Source: Acidihalobacter yilgarnensis (GTDB taxonomy: Bacteria > Pseudomonadota > Gammaproteobacteria > DSM-5130 > Acidihalobacteraceae). From it: a stretch of 64,000 nt of DNA. The DNA is taken from the NCBI RefSeq assembly GCF_001753245.1, contig NZ_CP017415.1, forward strand, positions 496,001 to 560,000, in the 5' to 3' direction. Below the pieces are notes generated by a model that saw nothing but the letters and a program-made list of their open reading frames with translations, did no database searches and was not told where the DNA came from. A program made the translations under genes and the position numbers. Shown piece by piece: positions 11,859 to 54,920 of this stretch; the stretch's first letter is position 1; every line of letters begins with the position of its first letter.

Positions 11859-13313
11859 CTATCCCGCGACAATCACGCGGTTGCGCCCTTGAGCCTTGGC
11901 GTCGTAGAGGGCCTCATCGGTGCGTTGTAGTAGCGCATGGGCATCCGTCATGGCGTCGGTCAGGGTGGCCACGCCGAAGCTCGCGGTCAACGGACTGTCG
12001 TGATGATCCCAGGGTTCGTCGAGGAACGCGCGCCGACATCGCTCGGCAAGGACCGCAGCATGATCGCCTGGCGTATCCGGCAGGACGATGGCGAACTCTT
12101 CCCCACCGTACCGTGCGGCCAAGTCCGTGGTGCGGATGGATTCGGTGATCAAACGGGCGGATTGACGCAGCGCTTGGTCGCCGGCAGGGTGTCCGAAGGC
12201 GTCGTTGTAGCGCTTGAAATGGTCGATATCGAGCAGAATTAATGACAGCGGGATATGCGAACGACGTGCGCGCGCGGTTTCCTTGTTCAGCACTTCGTCC
12301 AAGCTGCGGCGATTATGCAGGCCGGTCAGGGCATCGGTGATACTCAGATGCGCGAGATCGCGATAGGCCTCGCGCAGGGCAGTTTCGGATGTCTTGCGCG
12401 CTGTGATGTCCAGCAGCTCTCCGCTCAGGTAACGCGGTTGGCCGTCTGCATCCCGGATCACGGTGATGCCGACATAGGCCTCTACAATATGCCCGTCCTG
12501 GTGCAGATAACGTTTTTCCATTTCAAAGGCGTCGTGTTTGCCACGTACCAGTTTGCGGATTTCGGGTGCGGTCAGACCGCGGTCATCGGGGTGCGTGATG
12601 CGCTCGAAGGTGCTGTCGATCAATGCCTCGCGCGGGTAGCCGAGCATGCGGCAGAGCGTGGGATTGACGTCGAGGATATGGCTGTTAGCGACGTCGACGA
12701 TGGCCTTGCCGATGATGGCGTGATTGAAGCTCATATCGAGCATGGATTGGCGCTCGACGAGATGGCGGGCCAGTTCGTCGCGCTTGCGGTCTCGGACATT
12801 GCGTTCGATAAAACGGCCGATCAGGCCGGCCATCAGTTCGACGAGCATGATCTGGTCAGCATCAAACGGCCGTTGTCGTGGGCGGCTATCGCTGAAGTTG
12901 AGGGTGCCGTAGAGGACTCCATCAACCGTAACCGGGGTGCTGATGTAGGTCGTCAGGGGCGCCTTGCCGCGGTAGACGGGATGACTTAGCGATAACTGTG
13001 GCGGGTCGGATGCGTCGGTATGGCAGAGGGTGCGACGCTCGCGCACCACAGCCTCGCAGCTGGTTTCGTGTAGGCTGAAACAGCCTCCGGGGCGAATGTC
13101 TGGCAGCGGACTTTGCAGATAAACGATCCGGTAATCGTCGCCGTCGATATGACTAATGATGCCCGTTTCCAGCTCGAGCAGGCGTCGGCCAGCCTCCAGG
13201 CAGGCCTCCGCAAAGGCATCCATGTCCTCGAAGTGGGCTACGACCAGCTGATGCAGGTCGAGCAGCCAGGCCTGTGAGGTTCCGCCTGACCCACGCGGTG
13301 GGTGGGCATTCAT
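11859..13313 (-). CDS. GAF-PAS-GGDEF diguanylate cyclase
   Basis: 484 residues, no membrane segment. A GAF domain (about 15-170), a PAS/PAC domain (about 190-310, HPDD and [13 protein letters not shown]) and a GGDEF domain (about 320-484) with intact active site RYGGEEF. An RxxD inhibitory site (RTTD) lies five residues before GGEEF, so product feedback by c-di-GMP is expected. The protein should make c-di-GMP from two GTP under control of a cytosolic signal sensed by GAF or PAS. It is convergent with the Lrp-type gene, and no EAL or HD-GYP partner is adjacent. Confidence 0.92.
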
Positions 13314-13336
13314 GCCGACATCCTAGCGTGTGCCGA

Positions 13337-14905
13337 TCAGTGGCGGAAGTGCCGTACTCCGGTGAACACCATGGCCATGCCGTGGCTGTCGGCGGCCTCG
13401 ATCACCTCTTCGTCGCGCATCGAACCGCCTGGCTGGATCACGGCGGTGATGCCGGCCTCCGCCGCCGCGTCGATACCGTCGCGGAACGGGAAGAATGCAT
13501 CCGAGGCCATCACCGAGCCGGCCACCACGAGACCCTCGTCGGCGGCCTTGATGCCAGCGATACGTGCGGAATAGACGCGGCTCATCTGCCCCGCGCCTAC
13601 GCCTACCGTTTGACGATCACGTGCGTAAACGATGGCATTGGATTTGACGAATTTGGCGACCTGCCAGGCGAACAGTAGATCGTCGAGCTCCTGCGGATTG
13701 GGCGAGCGCCGGGTGACGGGCTTGAGCGTCTCGGCGCTGATGGAGGCGATGTCGCGGTCCTGTACCAACAGGCCGCCATTGACGCGCTTGAAGTCGAGAC
13801 CGGGTGTCGGTGCGTCCCACTGGCCGCAGGCCAGTAGCCGCACGTTCTTCTTTTCCGCTACGGCGCGCGCCGCCGCCGGGGTGATCTCCGGAGCGATGAT
13901 GACCTCGACGAACTGGCGGCTGACGATGGCGCGAGCGGTGTCACCGTCCAGCGGACGATTGAAGGCAATGATGCCGCCATAGGCCGAAGTGGGGTCGGTT
14001 TGATAAGCGCGTTCATAGGCGGTCAGTAGATTGGGTGCGACGGACACGCCGCAGGGATTGGCGTGCTTGACGATCACGCAGGCGGGCGCATCGAACTGCT
14101 TGACGCATTCGAGCGCCGCGTCGGTGTCCGCGATGTTGTTGAATGACAGCGCCTTGCCTTGTAGCTGGCGGGCACTGGCGACGCTGGCCTCGGCGACGGT
14201 TCGCTCGCGGTAGAAGGCGGCACGCTGGTGCGGATTTTCGCCGTAGCGCAGGTCTTCGGATTTGTCGAACTGGAGGCTGAGGGTGTCCGCGAAGGGTTGG
14301 CGGTCGCCGTCGGCCGTGACGGCGCCTAGATAGTTGGCGACCATGCCGTCGTAGCGTGCGGTATGGGCGAAGGCCTTGGCGGCGAGCGCGAAACGGGTTC
14401 GCAGAAAGGTGCCGCCGTGTGCACGCAACTCGTCGATCAGGCCGGCATAATCCTCGGGATCGACAACTACGCCGACATCGGCGTGGTTCTTGGCTGCCGC
14501 GCGCACCATGGCCGGGCCGCCGATGTCGATCTGCTCGATGGCCTCGGGCAAGGTGCAGTCGGGGTTGGCGATCGTGGCTTCGAAGGGGTAGAGGTTGACC
14601 ACGACCAGGTCGATGGTGCCGATGCCATGGGTCGCCATGACTTCATCGTCGATGCCGCGGCGTCCGAGGATGCCACCGTGAATCTTCGGGTGCAGCGTCT
14701 TGACGCGCCCATCCATCATTTCCGGGAGGCCGGTGTGTTCCGAGACGTCGAGGACTGGCAGCCCGGCGGCCTTGAGGGTGCGGGCAGTGCCGCCGGTGGA
14801 GAGCAGCTCGACGCCGAGTGCTACGAGGGCGCGGGCGAGGGCCTCAATGCCGGTTTTGTCGGAAACGCTGATGAGGGCTCGGCCGATGGGTCGGATATCT
14901 TGCAT
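13337..14905 (-). CDS. purH: bifunctional AICAR transformylase / IMP cyclohydrolase
   Basis: 522 residues, typical PurH length. The N-terminal MGS-like cyclohydrolase domain (about 1-150; [43 protein letters not shown]) is followed by the AICARFT domain with RYGENPHQ and KHANPCG. It performs the last two steps of IMP synthesis using 10-formyl-THF. It stands downstream of dusB-fis on the same strand, the conserved fis-purH neighbourhood, with 98 non-coding bases before it. Confidence 0.97.
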
Positions 14906-28555: not shown

Positions 28556-28583
28556 GCCCGGCGCCTTTTTCGCCGATACTCTG

Positions 28584-28612
28584 GAGCCCCGCGAAAGCGG
28601 GGCTCTTTTTTT
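28584..28612 (+). terminator. intrinsic terminator of groESL
   Basis: Perfect 9-bp stem GAGCCCCGC with a GAAA tetraloop and GCGGGGCTC, followed by seven T residues (28606-28612). Confidence 0.95.
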
Positions 28613-28955: not shown

Positions 28956-29420
28956 ATGGCCGAGCATGCCTGGGTAGTCCCCAAGGCGTTGAAGCAGGTG
29001 CGGATGTGGATTCACCCCGAAGGACAGGTGTTGGCGGGTATCTATCTGGTCGCTACCCATCCGGGAGAGTTGCCCGCGGAACTGCCGATTGATCTGCTCA
29101 ATCAGCACACACCTTTTCTGGCCTGTCAGTGTCACGGTGGCGAGTTGCGCTTCTACAACAAGAATGCGCTGGTGCGCATGGAATACGAATCCCAGGCCGA
29201 GTGTGCAATGGCGACGGACGTGACTTTGCGTGGCGAGTTCGGGTTGATGGATGGCTCGGTCTTCGTGGGCGACATTCGAGAAAATCTACCGCCGGAGCGC
29301 CGGCGTTTGTTGGATTACCTCAACGTTCATATGGAACGATTTATTCGTGTTTTTCTGGGAGAGGATACGGTGGTGTTGATCAACAAGGCATACATCGTCC
29401 GTGCCATCCCGAGAGATTGA
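28956..29420 (+). CDS. protein of unknown function with an internal tandem duplication
   Basis: 154 residues, no signal peptide or membrane helix. I do not recognise the family with certainty. Two halves resemble each other: about 18-75 (EGQVLAGIYL, LLNQHTPFLAC, ELRFYNKNALVRM) and about 93-150 (DGSVFVGDIR, LLDYLNVHMERFIRV, TVVLINKAYIVRA). Each half looks like a small beta-rich domain with a conserved [YI]NK-x2-[LI]V ending. It is first in an operon with a HEAT-repeat kinase (15-base gap) and two PilT ATPases. A role as adaptor or kinase substrate in pilus control is inference. Confidence 0.7.
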   Translation: MAEHAWVVPKALKQVRMWIHPEGQVLAGIYLVATHPGELPAELPIDLLNQHTPFLACQCHGGELRFYNKNALVRMEYESQAECAMATDVTLRGEFGLMDGSVFVGDIRENLPPERRRLLDYLNVHMERFIRVFLGEDTVVLINKAYIVRAIPRD

Positions 29421-29435
29421 ATTGGCGATGGTGAT

Positions 29436-31820
29436 ATGAGCCTGTTTCGTGACTTTCGGACCGAGCGCCGCATTGCCCAGATGTTGGCCATTAAACAGAC
29501 CAGCTCGGTGGAGGGGGTTCAGGCGCTGCAGAAGCTGCGTGAGTGTGCAGGAGAGGCGATTCCCCGCTTGGTCCGATTGCTGGCATCCGGGGACGGCGTC
29601 AACAAGGCACAGCTTGTTCAAATACTGACGAGGCTTCTGGACGACGATACCCTCCCGCACTTCCATCGGGTACTGGCAGCAGGCGATCCACGCTTGGCTC
29701 AGGCAGCGGTGGAGATTCTGCGCGGGGGGCGTGGTTACGACCCCAATCATCTGCTGGACTTTCTAGCTGACCCCGCAGTACCCAAGGCGGCCTTGCTCGA
29801 CATACTTTCGGCCCAGGGCAAATTGCTCGATGCGGCCGGCATACTGCGCCAGATCAGTTACCTCGATCCCAGTGAACGCAATGTTGCATTTCGATTGCTC
29901 TCGGAAATAGCGGAGCCATCGCTGATCCCTGAATTGGTGAGTCGTGCCAATGCCAAGGATTTGCAGATACGGCAGGGTGTGGCTCGGGTATTGGGCCGTT
30001 TCGATCACCCCATGGCACATGAGGCGTTGCGCCATTTGTTGGACGACCCGGGCAAGACTGTGCGACAGCTCGCGCTTGAGGCTTTGGCCACTCATCCCGG
30101 AGCATTGGATATCGAAACGCTGTTCCGGCTGTTGCGTGACAGCGACCTCTCCATCCAGGGTCGGGCGGTGGACGCGATCATTCAGATGCACGATCCGGAA
30201 ACACTGACGTATCTGATCGACGTGCTACGCGACGAATCGGAGTATGTCCGGCGGGCGGGCGTGGAAATTCTCAACGAGACCGGCGATACCACCTCGATCA
30301 AAACGCTGCTCAGAGCCATCCGCGACGACGACTGGTGGGTACGCGCGCGCGCGGCGGACGCGCTGGCCCGGATCGGTGGTAGCCGGGTCATTCAGGCGGT
30401 CGTGTTACTACTGCGCGACGAGGATGAATTCATCCGCCGTGCGGCTGTGGAAATCATGAATTCGATCAAGGACGAGGCTTCGTTTCGGCACTTGATCGAT
30501 GCGTTGGCTGATTCCGACTGGTGGGTCCGCGAGCGTGCCGTGGATGCGCTGGCTAAATTGGGTAACAAGGCCGCTGTTCCGGCGTTGCTGCCGTTGTTGG
30601 AGCGAGACGATGCGACGGCAGTCGCAGTACTGCGGGCATTGATGCGACTGGGTGGGCCGGAGCAGATCGGCGTCGTGTCCGCACTGCTCAATCGCCCGGA
30701 ACCGTCGGTGCGCAGCGAGGCGATGCTGGTGTTGGTCGAACTGGCCGATGCTGAGCGCGCCACGGCGATCCACGGTCTGCTGGACAAGGCTGCACGCGCC
30801 GCACCGGAGGACGAAGTGCGCGACCTCGCGCGCGACTGCGCGACTCGCTTGGGCGAGCGTTTTGCTGCACCCGGCGCGGCGGCAGAGTCCTATGCCCGTA
30901 TACCGGCCGGCGACGAGGCGGATGCGGACGAATCTGAATCCGAGGTGCCGGTAATCGACGGTCCCCCGATCAAGCTCAAATTGCTGCGTGCCGGGGAATT
31001 GTTGGGGGAGCGCTATCGTCACATACGCCGGATCGGGCGCGGCGCATTCGGGACGGTTACGCTGGCCGAGGATTTGGTCCGGGGCGAGGAGGTCATACTC
31101 AAATTTTTACATCCCCAGATGGCGGTGGACGACAACATGGTGCGACGCTTTCAACGCGAACACCATTTTGCCAAGCGTATCGAACACCGTAATGTCATCC
31201 GCATTTACGATTTTTTCATGCTGGGTGGACTGTATGTGATCAGCATGGAGTACTTCCCGTCAACGGCGCTGTCCGCGGAGGTTAAGGCACATGTGCCTCT
31301 GAGTCTTGAGCGTGGCCTGCATATCGCGCATGAAGTGGCCGCCGGGATGACTGCCGCCCACGCCATCGGTATCGTCCATCGCGACCTCAAGCCAGGCAAT
31401 ATTCTCACCAACGAACACAATCTGGTGAAAATTGTGGATTTTGGCGTGGCTGCGGCAGTGGATAGCGCCGATACGCGCCTGACGCGTACCGGCCTGTTGG
31501 TGGGTACGCCTCGCTACATGGCGCCCGAGCAGGTACTCGGCAAATCCATAGACGCCCGTACGGATGTCTATAGTCTCGGCGTTATCCTGTACGAGATGCT
31601 TGCCGGTGCCTCGCCTTATAGCGGCGAGGACAACGTCGCGGTGATGTATCAACACGTGCAGGGTGGCGCCACCCCCCTGCACGAGCGTAACCCGGATATT
31701 TCTCGTACCCTCAGCGCCTTCGTTACGCGCATGATGGCCGTTGAACCGGACAAGCGTTTCCGCAGCATGTCCGAAGTCAGGCGCACGCTGGAACCCTTCA
31801 TGCACGATCATCGGCTGTGA
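29436..31820 (+). CDS. HEAT-repeat protein fused to a Ser/Thr protein kinase
   Basis: 794 residues. Residues about 1-480 are tandem HEAT/PBS-lyase-like helical repeats (units such as DDDWWVRARAADALARIGG, DSDWWVRERAVDALAKLGN). A short acidic linker (about 485-505) leads to a Hanks-type kinase domain (about 526-794): glycine loop IGRGAFGTV, lysine in VILKFL, catalytic HRDLKPGN, DFGVA, GTPRYMAPEQ and DVYSLGVILYEML. All catalytic residues are present. No membrane helix, so it is cytosolic, unlike PknB-type kinases. The HEAT solenoid probably binds a protein partner. Nineteen bases before pilT; control of pilus retraction is inferred from this linkage. Confidence 0.88.
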   Translation: MSLFRDFRTERRIAQMLAIKQTSSVEGVQALQKLRECAGEAIPRLVRLLASGDGVNKAQLVQILTRLLDDDTLPHFHRVLAAGDPRLAQAAVEILRGGRGYDPNHLLDFLADPAVPKAALLDILSAQGKLLDAAGILRQISYLDPSERNVAFRLLSEIAEPSLIPELVSRANAKDLQIRQGVARVLGRFDHPMAHEALRHLLDDPGKTVRQLALEALATHPGALDIETLFRLLRDSDLSIQGRAVDAIIQMHDPETLTYLIDVLRDESEYVRRAGVEILNETGDTTSIKTLLRAIRDDDWWVRARAADALARIGGSRVIQAVVLLLRDEDEFIRRAAVEIMNSIKDEASFRHLIDALADSDWWVRERAVDALAKLGNKAAVPALLPLLERDDATAVAVLRALMRLGGPEQIGVVSALLNRPEPSVRSEAMLVLVELADAERATAIHGLLDKAARAAPEDEVRDLARDCATRLGERFAAPGAAAESYARIPAGDEADADESESEVPVIDGPPIKLKLLRAGELLGERYRHIRRIGRGAFGTVTLAEDLVRGEEVILKFLHPQMAVDDNMVRRFQREHHFAKRIEHRNVIRIYDFFMLGGLYVISMEYFPSTALSAEVKAHVPLSLERGLHIAHEVAAGMTAAHAIGIVHRDLKPGNILTNEHNLVKIVDFGVAAAVDSADTRLTRTGLLVGTPRYMAPEQVLGKSIDARTDVYSLGVILYEMLAGASPYSGEDNVAVMYQHVQGGATPLHERNPDISRTLSAFVTRMMAVEPDKRFRSMSEVRRTLEPFMHDHRL

Positions 31821-31838
31821 GGCCGGCGAGGTGGCCGC

Positions 31839-32939
31839 ATGGCACGTATTGATGCATTTCTGAAACTCGGGCGAGAGCAAGGGTGTTCGGATGTGCATCT
31901 GGCCGTGGGGGCGCCACCGCTGCTGCGGATGAACGGTGAAATCATGCCCATCCGCTTCAGGGAATTGGGCGATCGAGAATTGCTCGGGTACATCTTCGAA
32001 ATTCTGAGCGAGAACCTCAAGACACGATACCGTTTGGGTGAGGACCTGGATTTTTCATATATGTCGGAGGGTGTGGGCCGCTTTCGCGCCAACGTCTTTC
32101 GCAAGGTGAACGGTATCGGCGCCACGTTCCGCTATATCCCGTCGCATGTGCCCAGCCTAAACGATCTGGGGTTGCCCCCAGTCGTGAATCGTTTGGCCGA
32201 ACATCGCCAGGGCATGGTGTTGGTGACCGGCTCTACGGGAACGGGAAAATCCACCACATTGGCGGCTATGCTCGACCTGATCAATGGGCAGGATGCCCTC
32301 AACGTGATCACGCTTGAGGATCCGATCGAGTTCATTCATACCAGCCGGCGGGCCCAAATCGTACAGCGCGAGATCGGTACCCATGTGCCGGGATTTATCG
32401 AGGGACTGCGCTCGGCCCTGCGCGAGGACCCCGACGTGATTCTCGTCGGTGAGCTACGCGATCCGGAATCGATCATGATGGCCATGGTAGCGGCTGAAAC
32501 CGGTCATCTCGTGCTGGCGACACTACACACCACCACAGCGGTCAAGACCATCGACCGTATCATCGATGCCTTGCCTATGGAGCAGCGCGAGCAGGGCAAG
32601 AGTTTTCTCGCAAACAATCTACGGGGCGTCATATCGCAAGTATTGGTGCGCTCGGCAGAGGGTGGCGGTCGCCGCGTGGTGGTGGAATCACTGGCCATGA
32701 CACCCGCCGTCGGACAGATGTTGCTCAGCGACAAAACCCATCAGATTCCGTCCGTCATGCAGACTGGACGTGAGGCAGGCATGCAGCTCCTCGATCAGGC
32801 CTTGCTCGATGGTATTCAACGCAAATTGATCGATCCGGACGATGCCTATCTCTACGCGCAGGACAAGAAGGCCTTCCAACGATTTGTGACCGATGCCTCG
32901 TTGCTACCGCGAGTCGGCCTGGCGGGAGGGGGGATGTGA
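31839..32939 (+). CDS. type IV pilus retraction ATPase, PilT/PilU type (first paralogue)
   Basis: 366 residues. N-terminal PAS-like domain (SDVHLAVGAPPLLRMNGEI), then a GspE/PilT ATPase with Walker A GSTGTGKSTT (about 131-140), Asp box TLEDPIEFIH, Walker B region DPDVILVGELRD and His box GHLVLATLHT. It powers pilus retraction as a hexamer on the inner face of the membrane. No pilin or assembly genes are in the window. It is coupled to the kinase gene (18 bases) and to the second paralogue by a 4-base overlap. Whether it is the PilT or PilU member cannot be decided by eye. Confidence 0.9.
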   Translation: MARIDAFLKLGREQGCSDVHLAVGAPPLLRMNGEIMPIRFRELGDRELLGYIFEILSENLKTRYRLGEDLDFSYMSEGVGRFRANVFRKVNGIGATFRYIPSHVPSLNDLGLPPVVNRLAEHRQGMVLVTGSTGTGKSTTLAAMLDLINGQDALNVITLEDPIEFIHTSRRAQIVQREIGTHVPGFIEGLRSALREDPDVILVGELRDPESIMMAMVAAETGHLVLATLHTTTAVKTIDRIIDALPMEQREQGKSFLANNLRGVISQVLVRSAEGGGRRVVVESLAMTPAVGQMLLSDKTHQIPSVMQTGREAGMQLLDQALLDGIQRKLIDPDDAYLYAQDKKAFQRFVTDASLLPRVGLAGGGM

Positions 32940-34006
32940 GCCGCGTCGACCGCTGGCTGAGCGAGTTACTCGAGCGCGGCGGCTCCGATATGCACCTGAT
33001 CGCGAGCCAATGTCCGAGAATGCGTCTGGATGGCCAGCTTGAGATGGTGGCCGACAGCCCGCTGGCGAGCGATGAAGTCGAGACCATGGCGGGTGAATTG
33101 CTCGGCGAGCAGGCGCGCGCGCGCTTCGAACGTGACGATGGTGTCGATTTCGCCTATCAGATGGGGGATACGGCCCGTTTTCGCGTCAATCTCTTTCGGC
33201 ATCTGGGCGGCCTTGGGCTGGTCATGCGCGCTATTCCACAGGCTCCGCAGTCTCTGGAGGCGCTGAAGTTGCCGACCGTACTGCGCAGTCTTTGTCAGCA
33301 TAAACAGGGACTGGTCTTGGTCACCGGCAAGACCGGTTCCGGCAAGTCGACCACGCTTGCCGCCATGGTCGATTTCATTAACACCACGCGCCGCAGCCAC
33401 ATCCTCACCATCGAGGACCCCATCGAATTCATGCATCAGCGTAAGCGCAGCCTGATCAGCCAGCGCGAAATCGGTGAGCATACGCCCAGCTTTGCCGCGG
33501 CGCTGCGTTCGGCGCTGCGCGAGGATCCCGATGTGATTCTGGTCGGTGAACTACGCGATCACGAAACCATCGCACTTGCAGTGACGGCTGCGGAAACTGG
33601 GATCCTGGTGCTCGGGACTTTGCATACCCGTCGCGCCGATCTGACGGTTGACCGCCTGATCAACGTATTCCCGGCCGGTAAGCAATCGCAGGTACGTATC
33701 ATGCTGTCGACCTCGTTGCGCGGGGTGGTCGCTCAGCAGCTTCTGCGCCGCGCCGACGATCAAGGACGGGTCGCCGCGACGGAAGTTTTGGTGAATACCT
33801 CGGCGGTTTCGAGCTTGATCCGCGATGGCAAGGTTGGACAGCTGGAGACGGCGATGCAGAGTGGGGCGCTGATGGGCATGCAGACCATGGATGGGGATCT
33901 GCGCCGTTTGCTAGATGCCGGCATGATCAGTGGTCATGAGGCTTACGCGCATAGCACCCACAAGGAAGTATTCCGCGCCTATCTGGGTGCCGGTGAGCCG
34001 CTCTAG
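32936..34006 (+). CDS. type IV pilus retraction ATPase, PilT/PilU type (second paralogue)
   Basis: 356 residues starting at GTG 32936, overlapping the previous stop as GTGA. The same ATPase core: Walker A GKTGSGKSTT, Asp box TIEDPIEFMH, DPDVILVGELRD, and a His-box region reading TGILVLGTLHTRR. The N-terminal domain (SDMHLIASQCPRMRLDGQL) is present. It differs from the first copy across the C-terminal third. Paired PilT/PilU motors retract pili together in several bacteria; pairing them with a kinase is the uncommon feature here. Confidence 0.88.
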   Translation: MSRVDRWLSELLERGGSDMHLIASQCPRMRLDGQLEMVADSPLASDEVETMAGELLGEQARARFERDDGVDFAYQMGDTARFRVNLFRHLGGLGLVMRAIPQAPQSLEALKLPTVLRSLCQHKQGLVLVTGKTGSGKSTTLAAMVDFINTTRRSHILTIEDPIEFMHQRKRSLISQREIGEHTPSFAAALRSALREDPDVILVGELRDHETIALAVTAAETGILVLGTLHTRRADLTVDRLINVFPAGKQSQVRIMLSTSLRGVVAQQLLRRADDQGRVAATEVLVNTSAVSSLIRDGKVGQLETAMQSGALMGMQTMDGDLRRLLDAGMISGHEAYAHSTHKEVFRAYLGAGEPL

Positions 34007-34068: not shown

Positions 34069-34806
34069 TCAGATGTTGACGTACATCCAGCCTTGGCGCA
34101 GTCGTCGCACCACCTCTTCTACGGCAGAGGGGGCGACACGCACGTGCCGAATCAGGTCAACCGGTACGCCGGCTGCCTCAAGATTGTGCATGGTGATGCC
34201 GCAGGCGACGAAGTGAAGATTGGGATACTTGCGCATCATTGCCCGGATACGCGCGGCGTAGTTCGAATTATCGTTGGCCTCCAGTAGCTTCAGGCCGCCG
34301 GCATTGGCCACCACTTCGACCTCGATGCCCTGATTGCCACCCTTGTTCAATAGGTAGCTGGCCTGTTGCAACGTGCCCGCGAATTTGAGTGGATTATCGG
34401 TGGCGACATGCAGGAGTACGCGAGGGGGTTCCCCGGGTAGCGCGTCGCCGGTATCGATCTGGATGGCGCCGAGTGCGGCGAGGTGATCCGTTAGCGAGGC
34501 GTCCTCGCGTGAGTGGACCAGCCACCCACCGGCGAAGCTGAGTAGCATCAATGCGAGTACCGTGCAGCAGGCCGCCAGCGAGCGACGCTGACCGAATCCG
34601 CGTCCGCTGGCGCTGGCCTGGGGTGCCGGAGGTGGAACGAAGTAGGCCTGCTGGACCAGATCCTTGACGCGGCGCAGCTCGCAGACCTGGTTACGCAGGT
34701 TGGCGTCTTCATACATGGCTTCGAGTAATTCGGCGCGATCATCCACATCGAGTTCATTGTCGATGTAGGCGTGCAGCCGAGGATCATCACGAAATCCGGC
34801 ATTCAT
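34069..34806 (-). CDS. anti-sigma factor with periplasmic DsrE-like domain
   Basis: 245 residues from ATG 34806 (GTG 34809 one codon earlier). Residues about 8-57 resemble the N-terminal helices of anti-sigma factors (LHAYIDNELDVDDRAELLEA) but lack the usual HxxxCxxC zinc site. One membrane helix (about 77-98), then an outer domain (about 128-245) that aligns along its length with the exported DsrE-like protein at 35751. Shared features are NP[LM]K, GL[KR]LL and a Cys in FVACGITMHNL against FDACHNTLENF. It is translated with the sigma gene (1-4-base overlap). It should hold the sigma factor until a periplasmic signal, perhaps thiol- or sulfur-related, is sensed. Confidence 0.72.
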   Translation of the reverse strand: MNAGFRDDPRLHAYIDNELDVDDRAELLEAMYEDANLRNQVCELRRVKDLVQQAYFVPPPAPQASASGRGFGQRRSLAACCTVLALMLLSFAGGWLVHSREDASLTDHLAALGAIQIDTGDALPGEPPRVLLHVATDNPLKFAGTLQQASYLLNKGGNQGIEVEVVANAGGLKLLEANDNSNYAARIRAMMRKYPNLHFVACGITMHNLEAAGVPVDLIRHVRVAPSAVEEVVRRLRQGWMYVNI

Positions 34807-35369
34807 CACTTCACCCTTCTCAGTGAGGCACGTGTGGACGTCTCGGGTTGCTGTTGTACGTCCGCCAGCGCGACCAACAGCGCCTGACGGGCGCGGCTGA
34901 GTCTGCTCATAACGGTACCAATCGGTATATCCAAAATTCGCGCCACTTCGGCATAGGCGAAGCCGTTGAGGTCGACGAGAGTGATGACCTCGCGCTGCCC
35001 AAGCGGAAGCGTCTTGATGGCGGCGCGCACGCGGTCAACCACCTGTTGGCGCTGATTGATCGTTTCGGGGGTGTCATCGCAGGGGAATGCCTCTTCGTTC
35101 AGAGGCTGGTCCGGTCGCTGGCGGCGTAGATGGCTGCGCCAGCAGTTGTGCAGGATCGCATAAAGCCAGCTTTGCAGGCGTTCGGCCTCGCGCAGTTGGC
35201 CAGCCTTCTGCAGGCCCTTGGAGATGGCCTCTTGAGCCAGATCGTCGGCCAACGATGGATCGCAACACCAGGCATAGGCCATGCGATAGAGGCGGGGCCG
35301 TTCCTCGGCGATCCGCTTCTTGATCTGTCCGGATAGGCTGATGAGATCAAACATCCCTGGCGTTTCCAT
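34806..35369 (-). CDS. ECF-family RNA polymerase sigma factor
   Basis: 187 residues. Region 2 (RPRLYRMAYAWCCDPSLADD, then LAQEAISKGL; about 25-90) and region 4 with its helix-turn-helix (LPLGQREVITLVDLNGFAYA and IPIGTVMSRLSRARQAL; about 120-165). Region 1.1 and region 3 are absent, as in ECF factors. First gene of a two-gene operon with its anti-sigma factor. Its own upstream region carries a motif also found before the DsrE-porin genes, suggesting autoregulation. Start ATG 35369 is taken; an in-frame ATG at 35354 is possible. Confidence 0.9.
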   Translation of the reverse strand: METPGMFDLISLSGQIKKRIAEERPRLYRMAYAWCCDPSLADDLAQEAISKGLQKAGQLREAERLQSWLYAILHNCWRSHLRRQRPDQPLNEEAFPCDDTPETINQRQQVVDRVRAAIKTLPLGQREVITLVDLNGFAYAEVARILDIPIGTVMSRLSRARQALLVALADVQQQPETSTRASLRRVK

Positions 35370-35392
35370 AGGTTTCGGCTTAACTCCAGATA

Positions 35393-35422
35393 CAAGACGC
35401 CCAGTATACCGAACTTATTCCA
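35393..35422 (-). promoter_or_regulatory. predicted ECF promoter of the sigma/anti-sigma operon
   Basis: On the minus strand: TGGAATAAGT (35422-35413), 12 bases, GCGTCTTG (35400-35393), 24 bases before the sigma start codon. The same two blocks with the same spacing occur on the plus strand at 35638-35667. The first block is placed like an ECF -35 box (GGAAT-type) and the second like a -10 box (GTC core). Confidence 0.6.
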
Positions 35423-35490
35423 ATGGGCGGTTCGGCGGGAGGCGGCCAATTGTCGCGGCTGGGTGAGGCGCACTATCGGATGATGAAATG

Positions 35491-35647
35491 TTCGACAATA
35501 ATAATATTAGAAAACAATTATTAATTATTTAATAATTTAATTCATTTGCATTGGTGGTTTTTTGTAATTTTTTTATTTTTTTAAGTACTTGAAATATAAT
35601 AAATTAATTGTAATTGTTATTTTTTGTGAAGAAATTGTGGAATAAGT
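35491..35647. other. AT-rich island between the sigma operon and the DsrE-porin operon
   Basis: In 35521-35640 I count 19 G or C in 120 bases (about 16 percent), against a clearly GC-rich surrounding. No open frame of note. Long A/T runs (for example around 35567-35582) suggest intrinsically bent DNA, an UP-element-like activator region or a target for a silencing nucleoid protein. It covers the divergent regulatory region of the module and ends at the predicted plus-strand promoter. Confidence 0.8.
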
Positions 35648-35667
35648 GTTAAGCAGCTAGCATCATG
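35638..35667 (+). promoter_or_regulatory. predicted ECF promoter of the DsrE-porin operon
   Basis: TGGAATAAGT (35638-35647), 12 bases, GCATCATG (35660-35667). Ten of ten bases match the first block and six of eight the second block of the minus-strand promoter at 35393-35422, while the 12-base spacers are unrelated. It lies 84 bases before the DsrE-like start codon, leaving a structured 5' leader. Confidence 0.6.
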
Positions 35668-35674
35668 GTTAATT

Positions 35675-35710
35675 GAGGAATTCCTCACCCGCGTGCTTCG
35701 GGCGTGCGGG
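35675..35710 (+). repeat. palindrome and hairpin in the DsrE leader
   Basis: GAGGAATTCCTC (35675-35686) is a perfect 12-bp palindrome, just downstream of the predicted promoter. It is followed by CCCGCGTGC / GCGTGCGGG (35688-35696 with 35702-35710), a 9-bp stem with two G-U pairs and a TTCGG loop. They could be an operator or mRNA-stabilising structures. No T-run follows, so it is probably not a terminator. Confidence 0.45.
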
Positions 35711-35750
35711 CCTATAAATGACAAGCATCGCTATTCAGAGGGAGATAACC

Positions 35751-36221
35751 ATGATGAGTCGATTCGTTTCCAGAGCACTTCTGGCGCTGGTGTCGCTAGG
35801 TCTTTTGGCGGCAGGTCCGGCCTCGGCCGAGATGGCGATGCCACCGATCGATCAGAAGCCCTTCGCCACCCATCACATCGTGCTGCAGATCAGCGATCCG
35901 AATCCGATGAAGCAGACGCTGGTGCTCAACGTCGCGGCCAATCTGGCCAAGTACTACGGTCCAGACAAGGTCGACCTCGAAATCGTGGCCTTCGGTCCCG
36001 GCCTGCGTTTGTTGCTCAATGACAACGTCAACAGGAAGCGCGTTGAGGCGATGGCCAAGAACTACGGCATCAAGTTCGACGCTTGCCATAACACGCTGGA
36101 GAACTTCAGCAAGCAGCTCGGCTATACGCCGAAGCTGAATCCCGAGGCGGTGCTTGTGCCGGCCGGCGCAGCGCGCATCGTTGACCTGGTGCAGCACGGC
36201 TACATTCTGATCAAGCCTTGA
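35751..36221 (+). CDS. exported DsrE/DsrF-like protein
   Basis: 156 residues from ATG 35751, chosen because GGGAG lies 8 bases upstream; an ATG at 35718 has none. A signal peptide (about 1-26, ALLALVSLGLLAAGPASA) is followed by a DsrE-like domain with HHIVLQISDPNPMKQTLVL, VDLEIVAFGPGLRLL and a lone Cys112 in FDACHNTLENF, the position of the functional Cys in many DsrE-type proteins. Members bind or carry sulfur or sense thiols; here in the periplasm. It is paralogous to the outer domain of the nearby anti-sigma factor. Followed by a porin gene after 64 bases, probably co-transcribed. Confidence 0.8.
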   Translation: MMSRFVSRALLALVSLGLLAAGPASAEMAMPPIDQKPFATHHIVLQISDPNPMKQTLVLNVAANLAKYYGPDKVDLEIVAFGPGLRLLLNDNVNRKRVEAMAKNYGIKFDACHNTLENFSKQLGYTPKLNPEAVLVPAGAARIVDLVQHGYILIKP

Positions 36222-49352: not shown

Positions 49353-50171
49353 TCAGCGCCGCAGTGCCAGATAAAGCCCGGCGCGCATCGGTGAGCGGTA
49401 GGTGAAGAGTTGCCGGGCGAGCCAGCCGGCGGGGCGCTCCTTGGTGTCGATGCGGCGGATGGCGGCGACGTTGTCGTGGGGGCGGTTGGTGCCGCGGATC
49501 ACGCTGAACTGGGACTCGAAGCCGAGTCCGGCGGCGAGCGACTGATATTCCGGCTCGAAGTAACCCCAGGGCCAGCATAGGTGGCGATCGGTGCCGCCGA
49601 GACGCGCGGTCAGGGTCGCGCGTGAGCGTTCCAGATCCTCGCGCAGGGCGGCGAGGCGTACTGCGGGATCGGGGTACAACTGGTCCCAGCGTACGTGGCC
49701 GTGGCTGTGGGAATGGAATTCCACTGTGCCGTCGGCGCTCATCATCTCGATTTCAGACCAGCGCAGCATGGCGCGGTCGGCCTCGTCGGCCTCGATGAGG
49801 CGCTTGCAGGTCCTGTGGTCTGGGCAGTCGGGCAGGTCGTCCAGGCCGCCGGCATATGGCCGCGGCGAACCGTCGCCTATCCAGCCGGTGACGGCGAAGA
49901 TGATCGCGTGCAGCCCGAGGCGCTTGAGTACCGGATAGGCATGCACGTAGTTGTCGAGATAGCCGTCGTCGAAGGTGATCGCGACGCTGCGTGGCGGCAG
50001 TGCCTCGCGGCCTTTCATGAAGGCGAGCAGCTGATCGGCGGTGATGGTCCGGTAGCCACCGCGCGCGAGACGCGTCATGTGTGCTTCGAAGGTGGCGGGC
50101 GAGACGGTGACTAGACCCGGGCGCGGGGTGACGTGGTGGTACATGAGCACGGGCACGGCGCGGGCGGTCAT
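49353..50171 (-). CDS. polysaccharide deacetylase family protein (NodB-like)
   Basis: 272 residues from ATG 50171, which overlaps the upstream stop as ATGA. NodB-homology domain: VPVLMYHHVTPRPG, VAITFDDGYLDNYVHAYPVL with the catalytic Asp pair, and VEFHSHSHGH as the metal-binding His motif, then WPWGYFEPEY. It removes N- or O-acetyl groups from a surface glycan. No signal peptide is seen, so it may act on a cytoplasmic or membrane-bound intermediate. Embedded in the LPS locus. Confidence 0.85.
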   Translation of the reverse strand: MTARAVPVLMYHHVTPRPGLVTVSPATFEAHMTRLARGGYRTITADQLLAFMKGREALPPRSVAITFDDGYLDNYVHAYPVLKRLGLHAIIFAVTGWIGDGSPRPYAGGLDDLPDCPDHRTCKRLIEADEADRAMLRWSEIEMMSADGTVEFHSHSHGHVRWDQLYPDPAVRLAALREDLERSRATLTARLGGTDRHLCWPWGYFEPEYQSLAAGLGFESQFSVIRGTNRPHDNVAAIRRIDTKERPAGWLARQLFTYRSPMRAGLYLALRR

Positions 50172-51274
50172 CGGGTGGTTCTCTCGGGTCGTTGCAGCAG
50201 ATCGTCGCACAGGCGTTCGGTCGCATCGAGCATGGCGTCGAGACTGAAGTGCGCATGGGCGTGTGCGCGGCCGCGTTCGCCCAGGGTTTTTGCCCAGCCG
50301 GGATCGGCGAATATGCGGTCAAGGGCGGCGGCCATCGCGTCGGCATCCTCGGTGGGGACCAGCAGGCCGGTGTCCTCCTGGCGGATCAGTTCCGGCACCC
50401 CCCCGACCTCGGTGGCGACCACCGGCAGGCCCATGCCCAGTGCCTGGGTGACGGCCTGCGGCACACCCTCGGAGCGTGAGCTGAGCAGCAGGGCGTCTGC
50501 GGCGCCCATCAGGTCGGGCACGTCGTCGCGGTGACCGAGGAAGTGCACGCGCCCGGTGAGCCCCAGCGTCTCGGCGCGCGCAGCGATCTCTTCGCGCATC
50601 GGACCGTCACCTGCGAGTACCAACTGCAGGTGGGGGCGTCGTTCGCCGAGGCGATGAATGGCCTCCAGCGCCAGCAAGTGGCGTTTGACGCCGCGTAGCA
50701 CACCGACCATCAGTAGCAGCTCGTCGGTATCGTTCAGGCCGAGTGCCGCGCGCACTGAGTGGCGCGGCCGTGCGGGGCGGAAGCGGGCAAAGTCGATGCC
50801 AGTGGGGATGCTCACCACTTGCGCGGCAGGGAATCCGCATTCGTCCACCAGACGCGTGCGTACGGCCTCGCCGCAGGCGATGATGCGGTCGGGTAGGTAG
50901 TGTACGAAGTTGGTCCAGCCGCGGCGCAGCGGATTGTTGAGGTGACGCGTGCGCAGCAGCACGGGGCTGTGCGCCCAGCGCGCGGCGATGCCGCCGACCC
51001 AGCTGTCGATACCGCTGTGGGTGTTGACCACGTCAATACGCAATCGCCGCAGCTGCCGGGCGAGGCGTGCGGCGCTGGCAAGATCGGCCGCGCCGCGTAG
51101 CGGCAGGCGCAGCGTGGGGATGCCGGCAGCCTCGGCGGCGGTGTGCAGCTGCGCCTCGGCGCGGGTAGCCAGCCAGATATCGTGTCCGCGCGCGCGCATG
51201 CCGGTCATCTCGGCGAGGATGCGGCGTTCCTGACCGCCGAAGCCGTCGGACCATTCGGTGTGCAGGATACGCAT
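50168..51274 (-). CDS. GT4-family glycosyltransferase
   Basis: 368 residues from ATG 51274 (MRILHTEWSDGFGGQERRI); the stop of the waaQ-like gene overlaps it by one base. A longer reading toward 51793 is Arg-rich and shadows that neighbour. GT-B motifs: GGQERRILAEMTGM, PTGIDFARFRP, LLMVGVLRGVKRHLL and SRSEGVPQAVTQALGMGLPVVATEVGGVPEL. Likely adds a hexose or heptose to the LPS core. Confidence 0.87.
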   Translation of the reverse strand: MRILHTEWSDGFGGQERRILAEMTGMRARGHDIWLATRAEAQLHTAAEAAGIPTLRLPLRGAADLASAARLARQLRRLRIDVVNTHSGIDSWVGGIAARWAHSPVLLRTRHLNNPLRRGWTNFVHYLPDRIIACGEAVRTRLVDECGFPAAQVVSIPTGIDFARFRPARPRHSVRAALGLNDTDELLLMVGVLRGVKRHLLALEAIHRLGERRPHLQLVLAGDGPMREEIAARAETLGLTGRVHFLGHRDDVPDLMGAADALLLSSRSEGVPQAVTQALGMGLPVVATEVGGVPELIRQEDTGLLVPTEDADAMAAALDRIFADPGWAKTLGERGRAHAHAHFSLDAMLDATERLCDDLLQRPERTTR

Positions 51275-52377
51275 TATGCCGCGCTCGCCTGGTCGAGTGC
51301 GGCCTCCAGCTCGGCCATTACCAGCGATGCGGGGAGGCGATCCAGACAGTCGCTGCGCTTGCTGCCGTCGCAGCCGTCCTGGCCGCAGGGTACACAGCCC
51401 CAGGCTTGCTGGATGACATGATGCCTGCCTGCCTGCTGTAGCCCCGAACGGGCTGGATAAGGATTCTCGGCGGTGTGGCCGTTGGGCCAGGGACCCCAGT
51501 CGAAGGCCCCAGAAGGGCCGAAGATCGCGACCACCGGGGTGCCGACGGCGGCAGCCATATGCATGGGGGCGGTGTCGACGCCGAAGAAGACATCGGCCTG
51601 GGCGCTCAGCGCGGCGGTCTGCTTGAGGCTCAGGCGGCCGCCGAGGTCGATGGGGTGCTCCCTGCTGCGCGCGAGGATGCCGTCGAGGCGTGCTCGCTCG
51701 CGTGCATCCGGTGCGCAGGTGAGCACCACCTGCACGCCGAGGCGGCCAATCAGCCGGTCGATGATCTCGGCCATGCCAGCATCGGTCCAGCACTTGAAAA
51801 ACCAGCGCGAGGTCGGGTGGATGTGTACCAACGGCCGGCCGGGCATATGGCCGCCCTCGGCGAGTAGGTAGCGCACCGCTTCGCGGTCGGCATCATTCAC
51901 CGTGAGCGACACGCTGATTGCGTTGATAGCCGCCTCGGCGCCGCCGAGATCGAGGTTGCGCAGCACCGTATGGCGCGGACCGGGACGCGGCGCGACCGGT
52001 TCGTTAATCAGCCAGCGTCGCCAGTGCTTGTCCTTGGCGGGATCGATCGGCGCACGTCGGCGCGGGGCGCCGGATAGCCGCGCCGCGATGGCGCCGCGGT
52101 CACCTTCCGTGGTGCTGATCGCCAGATCGAAGCGGCGTGCGCGCAAGGTTCGGAAGAAGGCCAGTTCATGGCGCAGCAGGGCACTGCGCGATTCGCCGAG
52201 CTGGCGGGTCGGATAGACGAACAGTTCGTCGAGACCGGGGTGGCCGGCGAGCATGGGCTCGGTGCCGGCCTTGACCAGGGCGCTGACGCGGTGACCGCCC
52301 GCGCGCAGGGCCGAGACTAGGGGGGCGGTTAGTAGCACGTCGCCGATGTTGCGGAATTTGATGACCAGAATGTTCAT
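51274..52377 (-). CDS. waaQ: LPS heptosyltransferase III-like (WaaQ type)
   Basis: 367 residues from ATG 52377, overlapping the lpxL stop by one base. NILVIKFRNIGDVLLTAPLVSALR, HPTSRWFFKCWTDAGMAE and GVDTAPMHMAAAVGTPVVAIFGPSGAFDWGPW are characteristic of the WaaQ branch of GT9, which adds heptose III to the inner core. The IHPTSRWFFKCW motif is the best evidence. A frequent partner gene, the core heptose kinase waaP, is not seen in this window. Confidence 0.85.
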   Translation of the reverse strand: MNILVIKFRNIGDVLLTAPLVSALRAGGHRVSALVKAGTEPMLAGHPGLDELFVYPTRQLGESRSALLRHELAFFRTLRARRFDLAISTTEGDRGAIAARLSGAPRRRAPIDPAKDKHWRRWLINEPVAPRPGPRHTVLRNLDLGGAEAAINAISVSLTVNDADREAVRYLLAEGGHMPGRPLVHIHPTSRWFFKCWTDAGMAEIIDRLIGRLGVQVVLTCAPDARERARLDGILARSREHPIDLGGRLSLKQTAALSAQADVFFGVDTAPMHMAAAVGTPVVAIFGPSGAFDWGPWPNGHTAENPYPARSGLQQAGRHHVIQQAWGCVPCGQDGCDGSKRSDCLDRLPASLVMAELEAALDQASAA

Positions 52378-53321
52378 CAGTAGAAGCGCGGCCCGTCGTC
52401 GGGGCGGTCCTTGAAGCGGCGGTTGACCCACAGATATTGCTCAGGGAAGCGCCGTGCAAAGCCTTCGATCAAGCCGTTGATGCGCGTGGCGTCGGCGCCG
52501 ACATCGTCGCTCGGGAAATCGTCGAGTACCGGCTGAAACTCCAGCAGGTAGCGTGAACTGCCGGGCAGGCGCGCACTGAAGAAGGGGACCACCGGCGCGC
52601 CGGTCAGTCGGGCGATGCGCGAGGTCGAGGTGTTGGTCGCCGCGGGGATGCCGAAGAAGGGTGCGAAGACGCTGCCCTTGTGGCCGTAGTTCTGATCCGA
52701 GGCATACCAGACCACGTGTTTCTCACGCAGGCTACGCAGCAGGCCGCGCGTATCGTGGCGAGGGATGGCCTTGCCGTAGCGCCGCGTGCGGCTGGCCGAC
52801 ATGGCGCGTTCGATCACCGGATTTTCATGTGGTCGATACATCACGTGCAGGTCCATGCGCGCGGCCAGCGGCTGGCCCGCGATTTCGAGGTCGGTGAAGT
52901 GCGCGCCGACCAGCATGACCCCCTGGCCCTGCGCGCGTGCGGCTTCGAAGTGCTCCAGCCCGGCCCATTCCACCTGGCGCAGGATTTTTTCCGTCGGCGC
53001 CCACCAGCTCATTGCAGTCTCGATCACGCCCATGCCGATCGAGGCGAAGTGTCGGCGCACCAGCACTTGCCGTTCACGCGCGTCGCGCTCGGGGAAGCAC
53101 AGATCGATGTTGATGCGCGCGATGCGGCGGCGGCGCGGCGCCAGCCAGTAGGCGATGTTGCCCAGTGCCCGCCCGATCGCCAACGCTACCGGGAAGGGCA
53201 GCCAGGTGACCGCGCGCAGCGCGCCCAGCGCGGCCCACGTGGGCCAGTGTCGGGGGGCGAGCAATGAGGATTCGGCAGACGGAGTATCGGACACGTTCGA
53301 TAAGCGCGCTAAATGGAGCAT
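52377..53321 (-). CDS. lipid A biosynthesis acyltransferase (LpxL/HtrB family)
   Basis: 314 residues from ATG 53321; an in-frame GTG nine codons later could also start it. An N-terminal hydrophobic anchor (about 28-50), the acyltransferase H-x4-E site in GAHFTDLE, and [22 protein letters not shown] and [10 protein letters not shown] motifs. It transfers a secondary acyl chain to Kdo2-lipid A. First gene of the minus-strand LPS operon, divergent from hldE. Confidence 0.87.
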
Positions 53322-53347
53322 TCTACGGGGCAGGGCTCGGCCGTCAC

Positions 53348-53377
53348 AAGCGGCGTCCATGCTAATATACGCCGCTT
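53348..53377. promoter_or_regulatory. 9-bp inverted repeat over a possible extended -10 box, divergent lpxL/hldE region
   Basis: AAGCGGCGT (53348-53356) and ACGCCGCTT (53369-53377) flank 12 bases that contain TGCTAATAT, an extended -10 look-alike (53360-53368) for hldE. The dyad is centred between the two divergent LPS operons and could be an operator; a matching -35 is weak. Confidence 0.4.
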
Positions 53378-53463
53378 TCCGCATTGGACCCGCAAGCCGT
53401 GACCCGAATCGTCGCCGCCCGCCCGCTCCGCGCTGTTCCCGCCCGCTGCGCGGGATGCTCCGC

Positions 53464-54920
53464 ATGACGCCCGCCATCCCCGCCTTCGAGCATGCCCGCG
53501 TGCTGGTCGTCGGCGACCTGATGCTGGATCGTTACTGGCATGGAGAGGCCACGCGGATTTCGCCCGAGGCGCCGGTGCCGGTGGTACACGTCGGTCCCAG
53601 CGAAGAGCGCCCCGGAGGCGCGGCCAATGTGGCGCTTAATCTGGCCGCCCTTGGCGCCAAGCCGCTACTGCTTGGATTGACCGGCGACGACGAGGCCGCC
53701 AATACGCTGGAGGGGTTGCTTACCCCGGCGGGTGTGTCGTGCCGCTTCGTGCGTCTGCCGCGTCACCCGACCATTACCAAACTGCGCGTGCTGAGCCGCC
53801 ATCAGCAGCTCATTCGCCTGGATTTCGAGCAGGGTTTCACACCGGAGGATGCCGCGCGCATCGCCCAGGATATGGCCGATTGCCTCGACGAGATCGATGT
53901 CGTCGTGCTCTCGGATTACGGCAAGGGCACGCTGGCCGCGAGCCAGGTGCTGATTGCTCTGGCACGTAGCCATGGCAAGCCGGTGGTGGTCGATCCCAAG
54001 GGCAGCGACTTTGCGCGCTATCGGGGCGCTTCGGTGATTACCCCCAATCGCAAGGAATTCGAGGCGGTGGTGGGCCGTTGCATCGATGATGCGCAAATCA
54101 TCGAGCGTGGCCATGCCCTGATCGAGCGAGAGCTGCTCGACGCCTTGCTGATCACGCGTAGCGAGGAGGGCATGACGCTGTTGCGTCACGACGAGCCGGC
54201 GATGAATCTGCCCACACTTGCCCGCGAGGTCTTCGACGTGACCGGCGCCGGCGATACCGTGGTCGCCGTGCTTGCCGGAGCGCTGGCCTGCGGGCAGCCT
54301 TGGCCGCAGGCCACGGCGCTCGCCAACCTCGCAGCCGGCCTCGTGGTCGGCAAGCTGGGTACGGCCACGGTCAGTGTCGCCGAGCTGCGTCGCGCCCTAT
54401 TCACGCACGACGAGACCGCCTTCGGGGTGGTCGGCGAGACACGCTTGCTGGACGCGGTCGCAGAGGCACGTGCCCACGGCGAGCGTGTCGTGATGACCAA
54501 TGGTTGCTTTGATATCCTGCATGCCGGCCATGTTGATTATCTGGTCCAGGCCCGCCGGCTCGGCGACCGCCTGATCGTAGCAGTGAACACTGACGACTCC
54601 GTGCAACGGCTCAAGGGGCCCTCGCGTCCGATTAATCCGCTGGAACACCGCATGGCTGTGCTGGCCGGACTGGGCGCGGTGGATTGGGTTGTGCCCTTCG
54701 ACGAGGACACCCCGAGCGCCTGATTTGCGAGGTGTTGCCCGACGTGCTGGTCAAGGGTGGCGACTACCGCGCCGAAGACGTGGCGGGTTACGGCTGCGTG
54801 ACCGCGGCCGGCGGGGAGGTGCGCACCATCGACTTCCGTTACGATTGTTCCACCAGCCGCATCATCGACGCCATCCTGCGCGGGCGCGGCGAAGACGCAT
54901 CGAGGGATTCCAGCGAATGA
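53464..54920 (+). pseudogene. hldE: bifunctional heptose kinase/adenylyltransferase HldE, interrupted by a 1-base frameshift
   Basis: The N-terminal part (about 420 residues, stop at 54723) has the PfkB-type kinase signatures [17 protein letters not shown] and [16 protein letters not shown] and the start of the cytidylyltransferase-like domain [16 protein letters not shown]. The remainder ([19 protein letters not shown] up to the stop at 54920) is in the next frame. One extra base near 54711-54714 joins them: FDEDTPERL, as in intact HldE. The restored protein would be 485 residues. Start ATG 53464 matches the spacing of E. coli HldE. It makes ADP-heptose precursors. Since hldD, waaC and waaF are intact, a sequencing or assembly error is more likely than gene death. 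Confidence 0.85.

Follow-up and report, generated by a model that had tools for sequence, protein, structure and literature searches.

Organization of the locus

The window that we analyzed, a 64,000-nucleotide stretch of the Acidihalobacter yilgarnensis genome, contains an operon of four open reading frames, all on the + strand: P1 (28956..29420), a HEAT-repeat Hanks-type Ser/Thr kinase (29436..31820), and the two ATPases PilT1 (31839..32939) and PilT2 (32936..34006). P1 and the kinase gene are separated by 15 bases and the kinase and PilT1 genes by 18 bases, and PilT1 and PilT2 overlap by 4 bases, which is exactly the spacing given in an earlier reading of this DNA made from its letters alone (below, the sequence-only reading). 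The left border of the unit is marked by a terminator-like hairpin with a T tail (28583..28606, + strand) that sits between groEL and P1, 3' of groEL; groESL lies upstream of the operon. The hairpin has 10 pairs, 8 of them G-C, and is followed by a run of T; one such structure was found, compared with a mean of 0.7 in shuffled sequences. Downstream lie two genes of opposite orientation, one encoding an ECF sigma factor and the other a likely anti-sigma factor, a label that has no Pfam match behind it. In this region (34069-36221) the two genes overlap, and the likely anti-sigma protein resembles the secreted-looking product of a divergent neighbor at 35718-36221 (28% over 125 amino acids), as if the anti-sigma factor carried a copy of the neighbor's domain. 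The earlier statement that no pilin genes are nearby agrees with our Pfam scan of 38 window ORFs (some at E 0.01, the others at E 1e-8), which detected none; at E 1e-8 a short pilin could be missed, and the 38 ORFs exclude 49353-50210, 52377-53477, nearly all ORFs beyond 54723, and short ORFs.

P1 has 154 amino acids and consists of two tandem small beta-barrel repeats. The duplication that the sequence-only reading had proposed for this protein is recovered when its halves are aligned to each other with hhalign (local mode: probability 93.6, E 2.2e-7; global mode: probability 71.4, E 4.5e-6), and the predicted structure (pLDDT 88) shows the two barrels one behind the other. The match of P1 to DUF6812 is weak (22.1 bits, below the Pfam cut-off of 27.1), and we found no paper on DUF6812 in the open-access literature. 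A Foldseek search with the predicted fold returned no match at E <=0.001 (best E 0.11), and comparison with the sequences of solved structures gave nothing credible, the best hit being an apical membrane antigen at E 0.0056. In a second structural comparison YaeO ranked best (Z 4.5) and many Hfq entries scored Z 3.3-3.6, with none reaching 5; the model thus weakly suggests that each half of P1 may be Hfq/Sm-like. In Synechocystis, Hfq is described as bound to PilB1 in the available part of PMC4390875. The P1 profile detected the protein in 37 of the 103 loci that extend 700 bases or more upstream of the kinase, and at no locus labelled Steroidobacter, Peristeroidobacter or Woeseia.

The HEAT-repeat kinase

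The kinase has 794 residues and combines HEAT_2 repeats with a complete Pkinase domain. The HEAT solenoid, a run of predicted helix pairs, extends over residues 2-475 (29439..30860, + strand; HEAT_2 E 1.1e-55) and is joined through a low-confidence linker (479-502) to the kinase domain at residues ~526-781 (31011..31778, + strand; Pkinase 527-776, PK_Tyr_Ser-Thr 530-781). The pTM of the predicted structure, 0.51, leaves the relative arrangement of the domains open. Among the homologues from 93 of our 105 distinct loci, the catalytic Lys, the HRD motif, the catalytic-loop Asn and the DFG Asp are each present in 91, and the window kinase contains no strongly hydrophobic stretch of 19 residues (maximum 1.29). 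The domains, residue counts and lack of such a segment bear out the description in the sequence-only reading of a soluble HEAT-kinase with a complete active site. Judged by residue conservation the protein appears catalytically equipped, and we predict it to be active. Beyond the HEAT repeats, Pfam recognised no sensor domain.

PknB carries membrane and PASTA parts. The kinase described here shares the complete kinase domain with Hanks-type Ser/Thr kinases such as those of the PknB type; however, it has an N-terminal HEAT solenoid in the place of the membrane and PASTA parts and no strongly hydrophobic segment. We also considered a defence kinase of the PD-T4-6 type; the PADLOC matches listed (at least 25) span the generic kinase domain alone. 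The window genome has four Pkinase matches in total.

Conservation of gene order

Across 84,980 species genomes, 588 kinase-related stretches were detected, and we used the best 80 of these, all labelled Gammaproteobacteria or merely Proteobacteria or Pseudomonadota. Together with 34 genome stretches and the window they amount to 115 kinase loci, of which 105 are distinct after removal of 10 whose final 200 kinase residues were identical. Carriers include named strains of Ectothiorhodospira, Thioalkalivibrio and Steroidobacter. Both ATPase genes directly follow the kinase gene in 83 of the 86 loci that have at least 2.5 kb downstream of the kinase. The distance from the stop of the kinase to that of PilT1 measures 1081-1730 bases, and from the stop of PilT1 to that of PilT2 1045-1275 bases. 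When loci with at least 500 bases downstream are counted, PilT1, or a chimera containing it, comes next in 89 of 92. The 19 loci with less than 2.5 kb comprise 13 that end no more than 31 bases past the kinase, five in which PilT1 is next, and one (L091) without an ATPase gene.

The three exceptions among the 86 loci differ from one another. At L072 a run of N, either a gap or a masked stretch, lies inside the kinase gene, so that the locus cannot be judged; no PilT1 was found elsewhere in this genome, which is 72% complete. L089, from Ectothiorhodospira lacustris, has one ATPase gene (12396-13457) whose product is PilT1 in its N-terminal part and PilT2 in its C-terminal part. This chimera represents either a natural fusion or an assembly collapse; a related species (L090) carries both genes. 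At L059, from genome G166, no ATPase gene accompanies the kinase, and the PilT1-PilT2 pair, which falls into the module clades, is on another contig of this genome. L091 comes from a genome (G367) of the same family, f10; here the 2.26 kb after the kinase contain no ATPase gene, and PilT1 again is located on another contig.

Co-occurrence across genomes

In a sample of 369 genomes from the class, 51 contain a relative of the HEAT part (E 1e-25), 48 of them with clear orthologues of the kinase (E <1e-40) and three with distant ones (22-24% identity). A search of the same genomes with PilT1 gave matches in 46 genomes with E-values no higher than 8e-104, followed by a clean break to 5e-100, the next value listed. 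All 46 are on the kinase list, and 46 of the 48 genomes with an orthologous kinase thus have PilT1. The two others are G287, 72% complete and with its kinase locus broken by N, and G314, 78% complete and with the kinase on a 3-kb contig. None of the 321 genomes without an orthologous kinase yielded PilT1 (4 or 5 candidates were scored per genome); the threshold used would miss PilT1 where a draft genome contains only a short piece of it. The association gives a Fisher p of ~1e-56, uncorrected for phylogeny. In these counts the distant kinases of G157, G267 and G362 are grouped with the non-orthologues; counting them as kinase genomes changes the numbers to 46/51 and 0/318. Families f45, f107, f125 and f128 contain carriers as well as non-carriers, and within them the kinase and PilT1 change together. 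In a sample of the phylum, which may include few or many genomes from outside the class, the kinase was found in one of 398 genomes, that of the window.

With the order kept in 83 of 86 loci, and PilT1 always accompanied by the kinase (46/46) and never found without it (0/321), the linkage is no accident, and a chance adjacency of kinase and motor genes can be dismissed. The kinase and the two motors almost certainly constitute a co-inherited functional unit. The sequence-only reading had proposed a dedicated kinase-motor unit, and had named free separation of the genes across genomes as an observation that would speak against it; the survey revealed no such separation.

The two ATPases

PilT1 (366 amino acids) and PilT2 (356 amino acids, with a GTG start) score 397.9 and 443.7 bits against TIGR01420, the PilT/PilU family, both above its curated cut-off of 319.1. 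Among solved structures, both come much closer to PilT than to DotB, GspE or PilB. The Gly and Lys of Walker A, the Gly-Glu of Walker B, the Glu of the Asp box, the second His of the His box, and the Arg columns that we checked are invariant in 85 PilT1 and 82 PilT2 sequences. Membership in the PilT/PilU family, as claimed in the sequence-only reading, therefore stands; however, the pair is not the organism's own PilT and PilU. Canonical PilT and PilU of the window genome are encoded together at 272-275 kb, with a third paralogue alongside (272-276 kb), and in the tree the module PilT1 (SH-aLRT 100), the module PilT2 (98), canonical PilT (99) and PilU (98) form separate clades, with PilT1 and PilT2 falling outside the canonical ones. 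PilU and the third paralogue group together (SH-aLRT 99). This was a quick tree without bootstrap, calculated from 66 of 238 rows (167 module, 71 other), and it leaves the relations between the clades unresolved. A third PilT paralogue follows canonical pilT-pilU at L014 (10563-11837) and L193 (7134 onwards), and forms a branch of its own beside PilU. The window genome encodes two further, very divergent PilT paralogues at 1.48 Mb (L016, 4716-8051), near a PilB-like ATPase; this cluster possibly belongs to another type IV filament system.

The available text of PMC6762196 describes the AIRNLIRE motif as conserved in PilT and absent in PilU. PilT1 has lost the motif, whereas PilT2 retains most of it: Arg296 is found in 82/82 sequences, Asn293 in 78/82 (the window protein has Ser), and the final Glu in 30/82. 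Both His-box histidines are present in PilT1 (84/85 and 85/85). In PilT2 the first one is replaced, by Ile in 81 of 82 sequences and by Val in the remaining one; in the window this is Ile223 (codon at 33602..33604, + strand), at a position that is His in 33/33 canonical PilT and 32/32 PilU. With one His-box histidine missing, the mechanism of PilT2 may differ. The part of PMC5424180 available describes high conservation, across the wider family, for one His of the box, so that PilT2 could remain active despite the loss. A scan of the ATPases for Ser or Thr specific to the module returned three positions, S175 and T259 of PilT2 and T351 of PilT1. Only T259 (codon at 33710..33712, + strand), a candidate phosphosite, replaces an invariant Glu: it is Thr in 82/82 PilT2 and Glu in 33/33 canonical PilT. 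At the position of S175, PilT has Asn and most PilU have Thr.

With AIRNLIRE lost from PilT1 and mostly retained in PilT2, the two have the appearance of a couple in which one protein is PilU-like and the other PilT-like, and each departs from its model in a signature of its own. In this tandem arrangement, with one member carrying most of the motif and the other lacking it, as well as in the family score and the conserved Walker A, Walker B and Asp-box Glu, they resemble PilT and PilU, for which the difference in the motif is described in the accessible part of PMC6762196. They differ from these in forming two extra clades beside the canonical pair of the same genomes, in the order of the genes (PilU-like, then PilT-like), in the missing first His-box histidine and the Thr for Glu at position 259 of PilT2, and in their link to a kinase. 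In carriers, two of the surplus PilT paralogues are those of the module.

FHA genes near the module

Of 80 loci, 13 have an FHA gene after the ATPase pair, two of them in two copies; upstream, 7 of 96 loci have a divergent FHA gene of more than 500 codons. Four of these seven upstream proteins were scanned, and all four have the architecture FHA-GAF-HD. At L056 (2507-3502), a gene for an adenylate/guanylate cyclase-FHA fusion is located beside the pair, convergent with the module. The stretch EPTMF is invariant in all 12 module FHA proteins that were aligned, and the nearest solved relatives of the module FHA protein include GarA and OdhI. EPTMF may resemble the phosphorylated N-terminal ETT motif of GarA and OdhI; in contrast to the ETT motif, it is located after the FHA domain. 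Two loci without an FHA gene, L054 (7591-8259) and L073 (7484-8218), have after the ATPase pair a gene that by eye resembles those for secreted retropepsin-type aspartic proteases.

By the FHA profile, no FHA gene lies beside the operon in the window genome. The sole match to this profile and the sole match to PP2C_2 are found at 1.19 Mb, in a second kinase operon (L212, 3450-7835), which encodes a membrane-type kinase, a PP2C phosphatase and the FHA protein. With FHA genes in only 13/80 loci and P1 in only 37/103, neither component is universal. The linked FHA genes in some relatives make a wider phospho-signalling circuit likely, and we infer that the module belongs to such a network, some of whose components may be shared in the window genome.

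Possible functions of the module

The secretin PilQ is above the cut-off in 47 of the 51 genomes on the kinase list, and nearly all carriers can therefore make the type IVa secretin. PilB reaches the cut-off in 43 of the 51 (read from E-values, with three candidates scored per genome); however, it does so in 252 of the 369 class genomes, a frequency so high that finding the type IV pilus together with the module is weak evidence. We consider it probable that the motors of the module act on a type IVa pilus. That the two ATPases power some other machine of the type IV filament kind, for example type II secretion or another pilus, could be argued from their separation from the PilT and PilU clades, from the scan of 38 window ORFs, which revealed no pilus genes besides the pair, and from the four kinase-list genomes in which PilQ is below the cut-off, one of them (G039) 98% complete. 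However, both proteins exceed the PilT/PilU cut-off and are closer to PilT than to DotB, GspE and PilB structures, and PilQ is present in most carriers, so that we regard another machine as unlikely. Still less plausible, to the point of being highly improbable, is that the linkage reflects mere co-expression, with the kinase regulating unrelated targets. Kinases are often found in mixed operons, but mixed operons do not readily account for the strict co-occurrence and the conserved order, nor for G166, which retains the kinase and the motor pair though they are on different contigs.

The signal may also run in reverse: the motors, as sensors and not substrates, would inform the HEAT kinase of pilus load or surface contact, and the kinase would then phosphorylate the downstream FHA proteins and so change second-messenger levels. 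The FHA genes after the pair, the upstream FHA-GAF-HD proteins, the cyclase-FHA gene adjoining the pair at L056, and the invariant EPTMF all fit this direction of signalling. Most loci, including the window, are nevertheless without a linked FHA gene by the profile used, and the kinase has no recognised sensor domain beyond its HEAT repeats; we find reverse signalling rather doubtful. That the kinase controls the motors, either directly or via P1 or an FHA protein, appears reasonably likely to us. As an overall explanation we lean, if only slightly, toward a kinase-controlled accessory unit of retraction motors on the type IVa pilus.

For this kinase-controlled unit, we infer the substrate, the direction of signalling and the output at the pilus as follows. 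PilT1, as the PilU-like, and PilT2, as the PilT-like partner, would couple on the platform of the type IVa pilus and act beside or in place of the housekeeping PilT and PilU. The kinase, with the HEAT solenoid as its docking arm, would turn the pair on or off through phosphorylation, with Thr259 of PilT2 as a possible site; alternatively, it may act by way of a partner, either P1 or, in genomes that encode one, an FHA protein. The specific idea that Thr259 is the phosphorylation switch that gates spare retraction motors is speculative and on balance improbable. According to this idea, the kinase would dock through its HEAT repeats on the pair of PilU-like and PilT-like hexamers and phosphorylate Thr259; the phosphate would restore the negative charge that is missing in comparison to the Glu of canonical PilT and so turn the accessory motor on. 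If so, retraction would be engaged by a kinase signal and not by the supply of motors, and, in genomes that have them, FHA proteins and the divergent FHA-GAF-HD protein would tie the switch to second messengers. More generally, the comparisons of gene order and sequence suggest that protein phosphorylation may control a second, private set of pilus motors in many environmental gammaproteobacteria. The kinase and the two retraction ATPases that accompany it would offer a clean system in which to test how retraction is switched.

Among the matches listed in searches of the open-access literature, we found no description of a module of kinase, PilT and HEAT or FHA components, and no report of pilus motors being controlled directly by Ser/Thr phosphorylation. 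SpkA of Synechocystis is a Ser/Thr kinase involved in pilus-driven motility (PMC4390875, available in part, citing Kamei 2001). The module kinase would be similar in its predicted role in pilus-driven motility; however, its motors are co-inherited with it, and the available part of PMC4390875 does not mention an operon of SpkA with PilT. In the archaellum Arn network, the kinases ArnC and ArnD and the FHA protein ArnA control archaellum gene expression, as described in the accessible portion of PMC4307647. Like some of the loci described here, the Arn network combines kinases and an FHA protein with type IV filament machinery; unlike the control that we propose, it acts, according to the same portion of PMC4307647, on archaellum gene expression and not on the motor.
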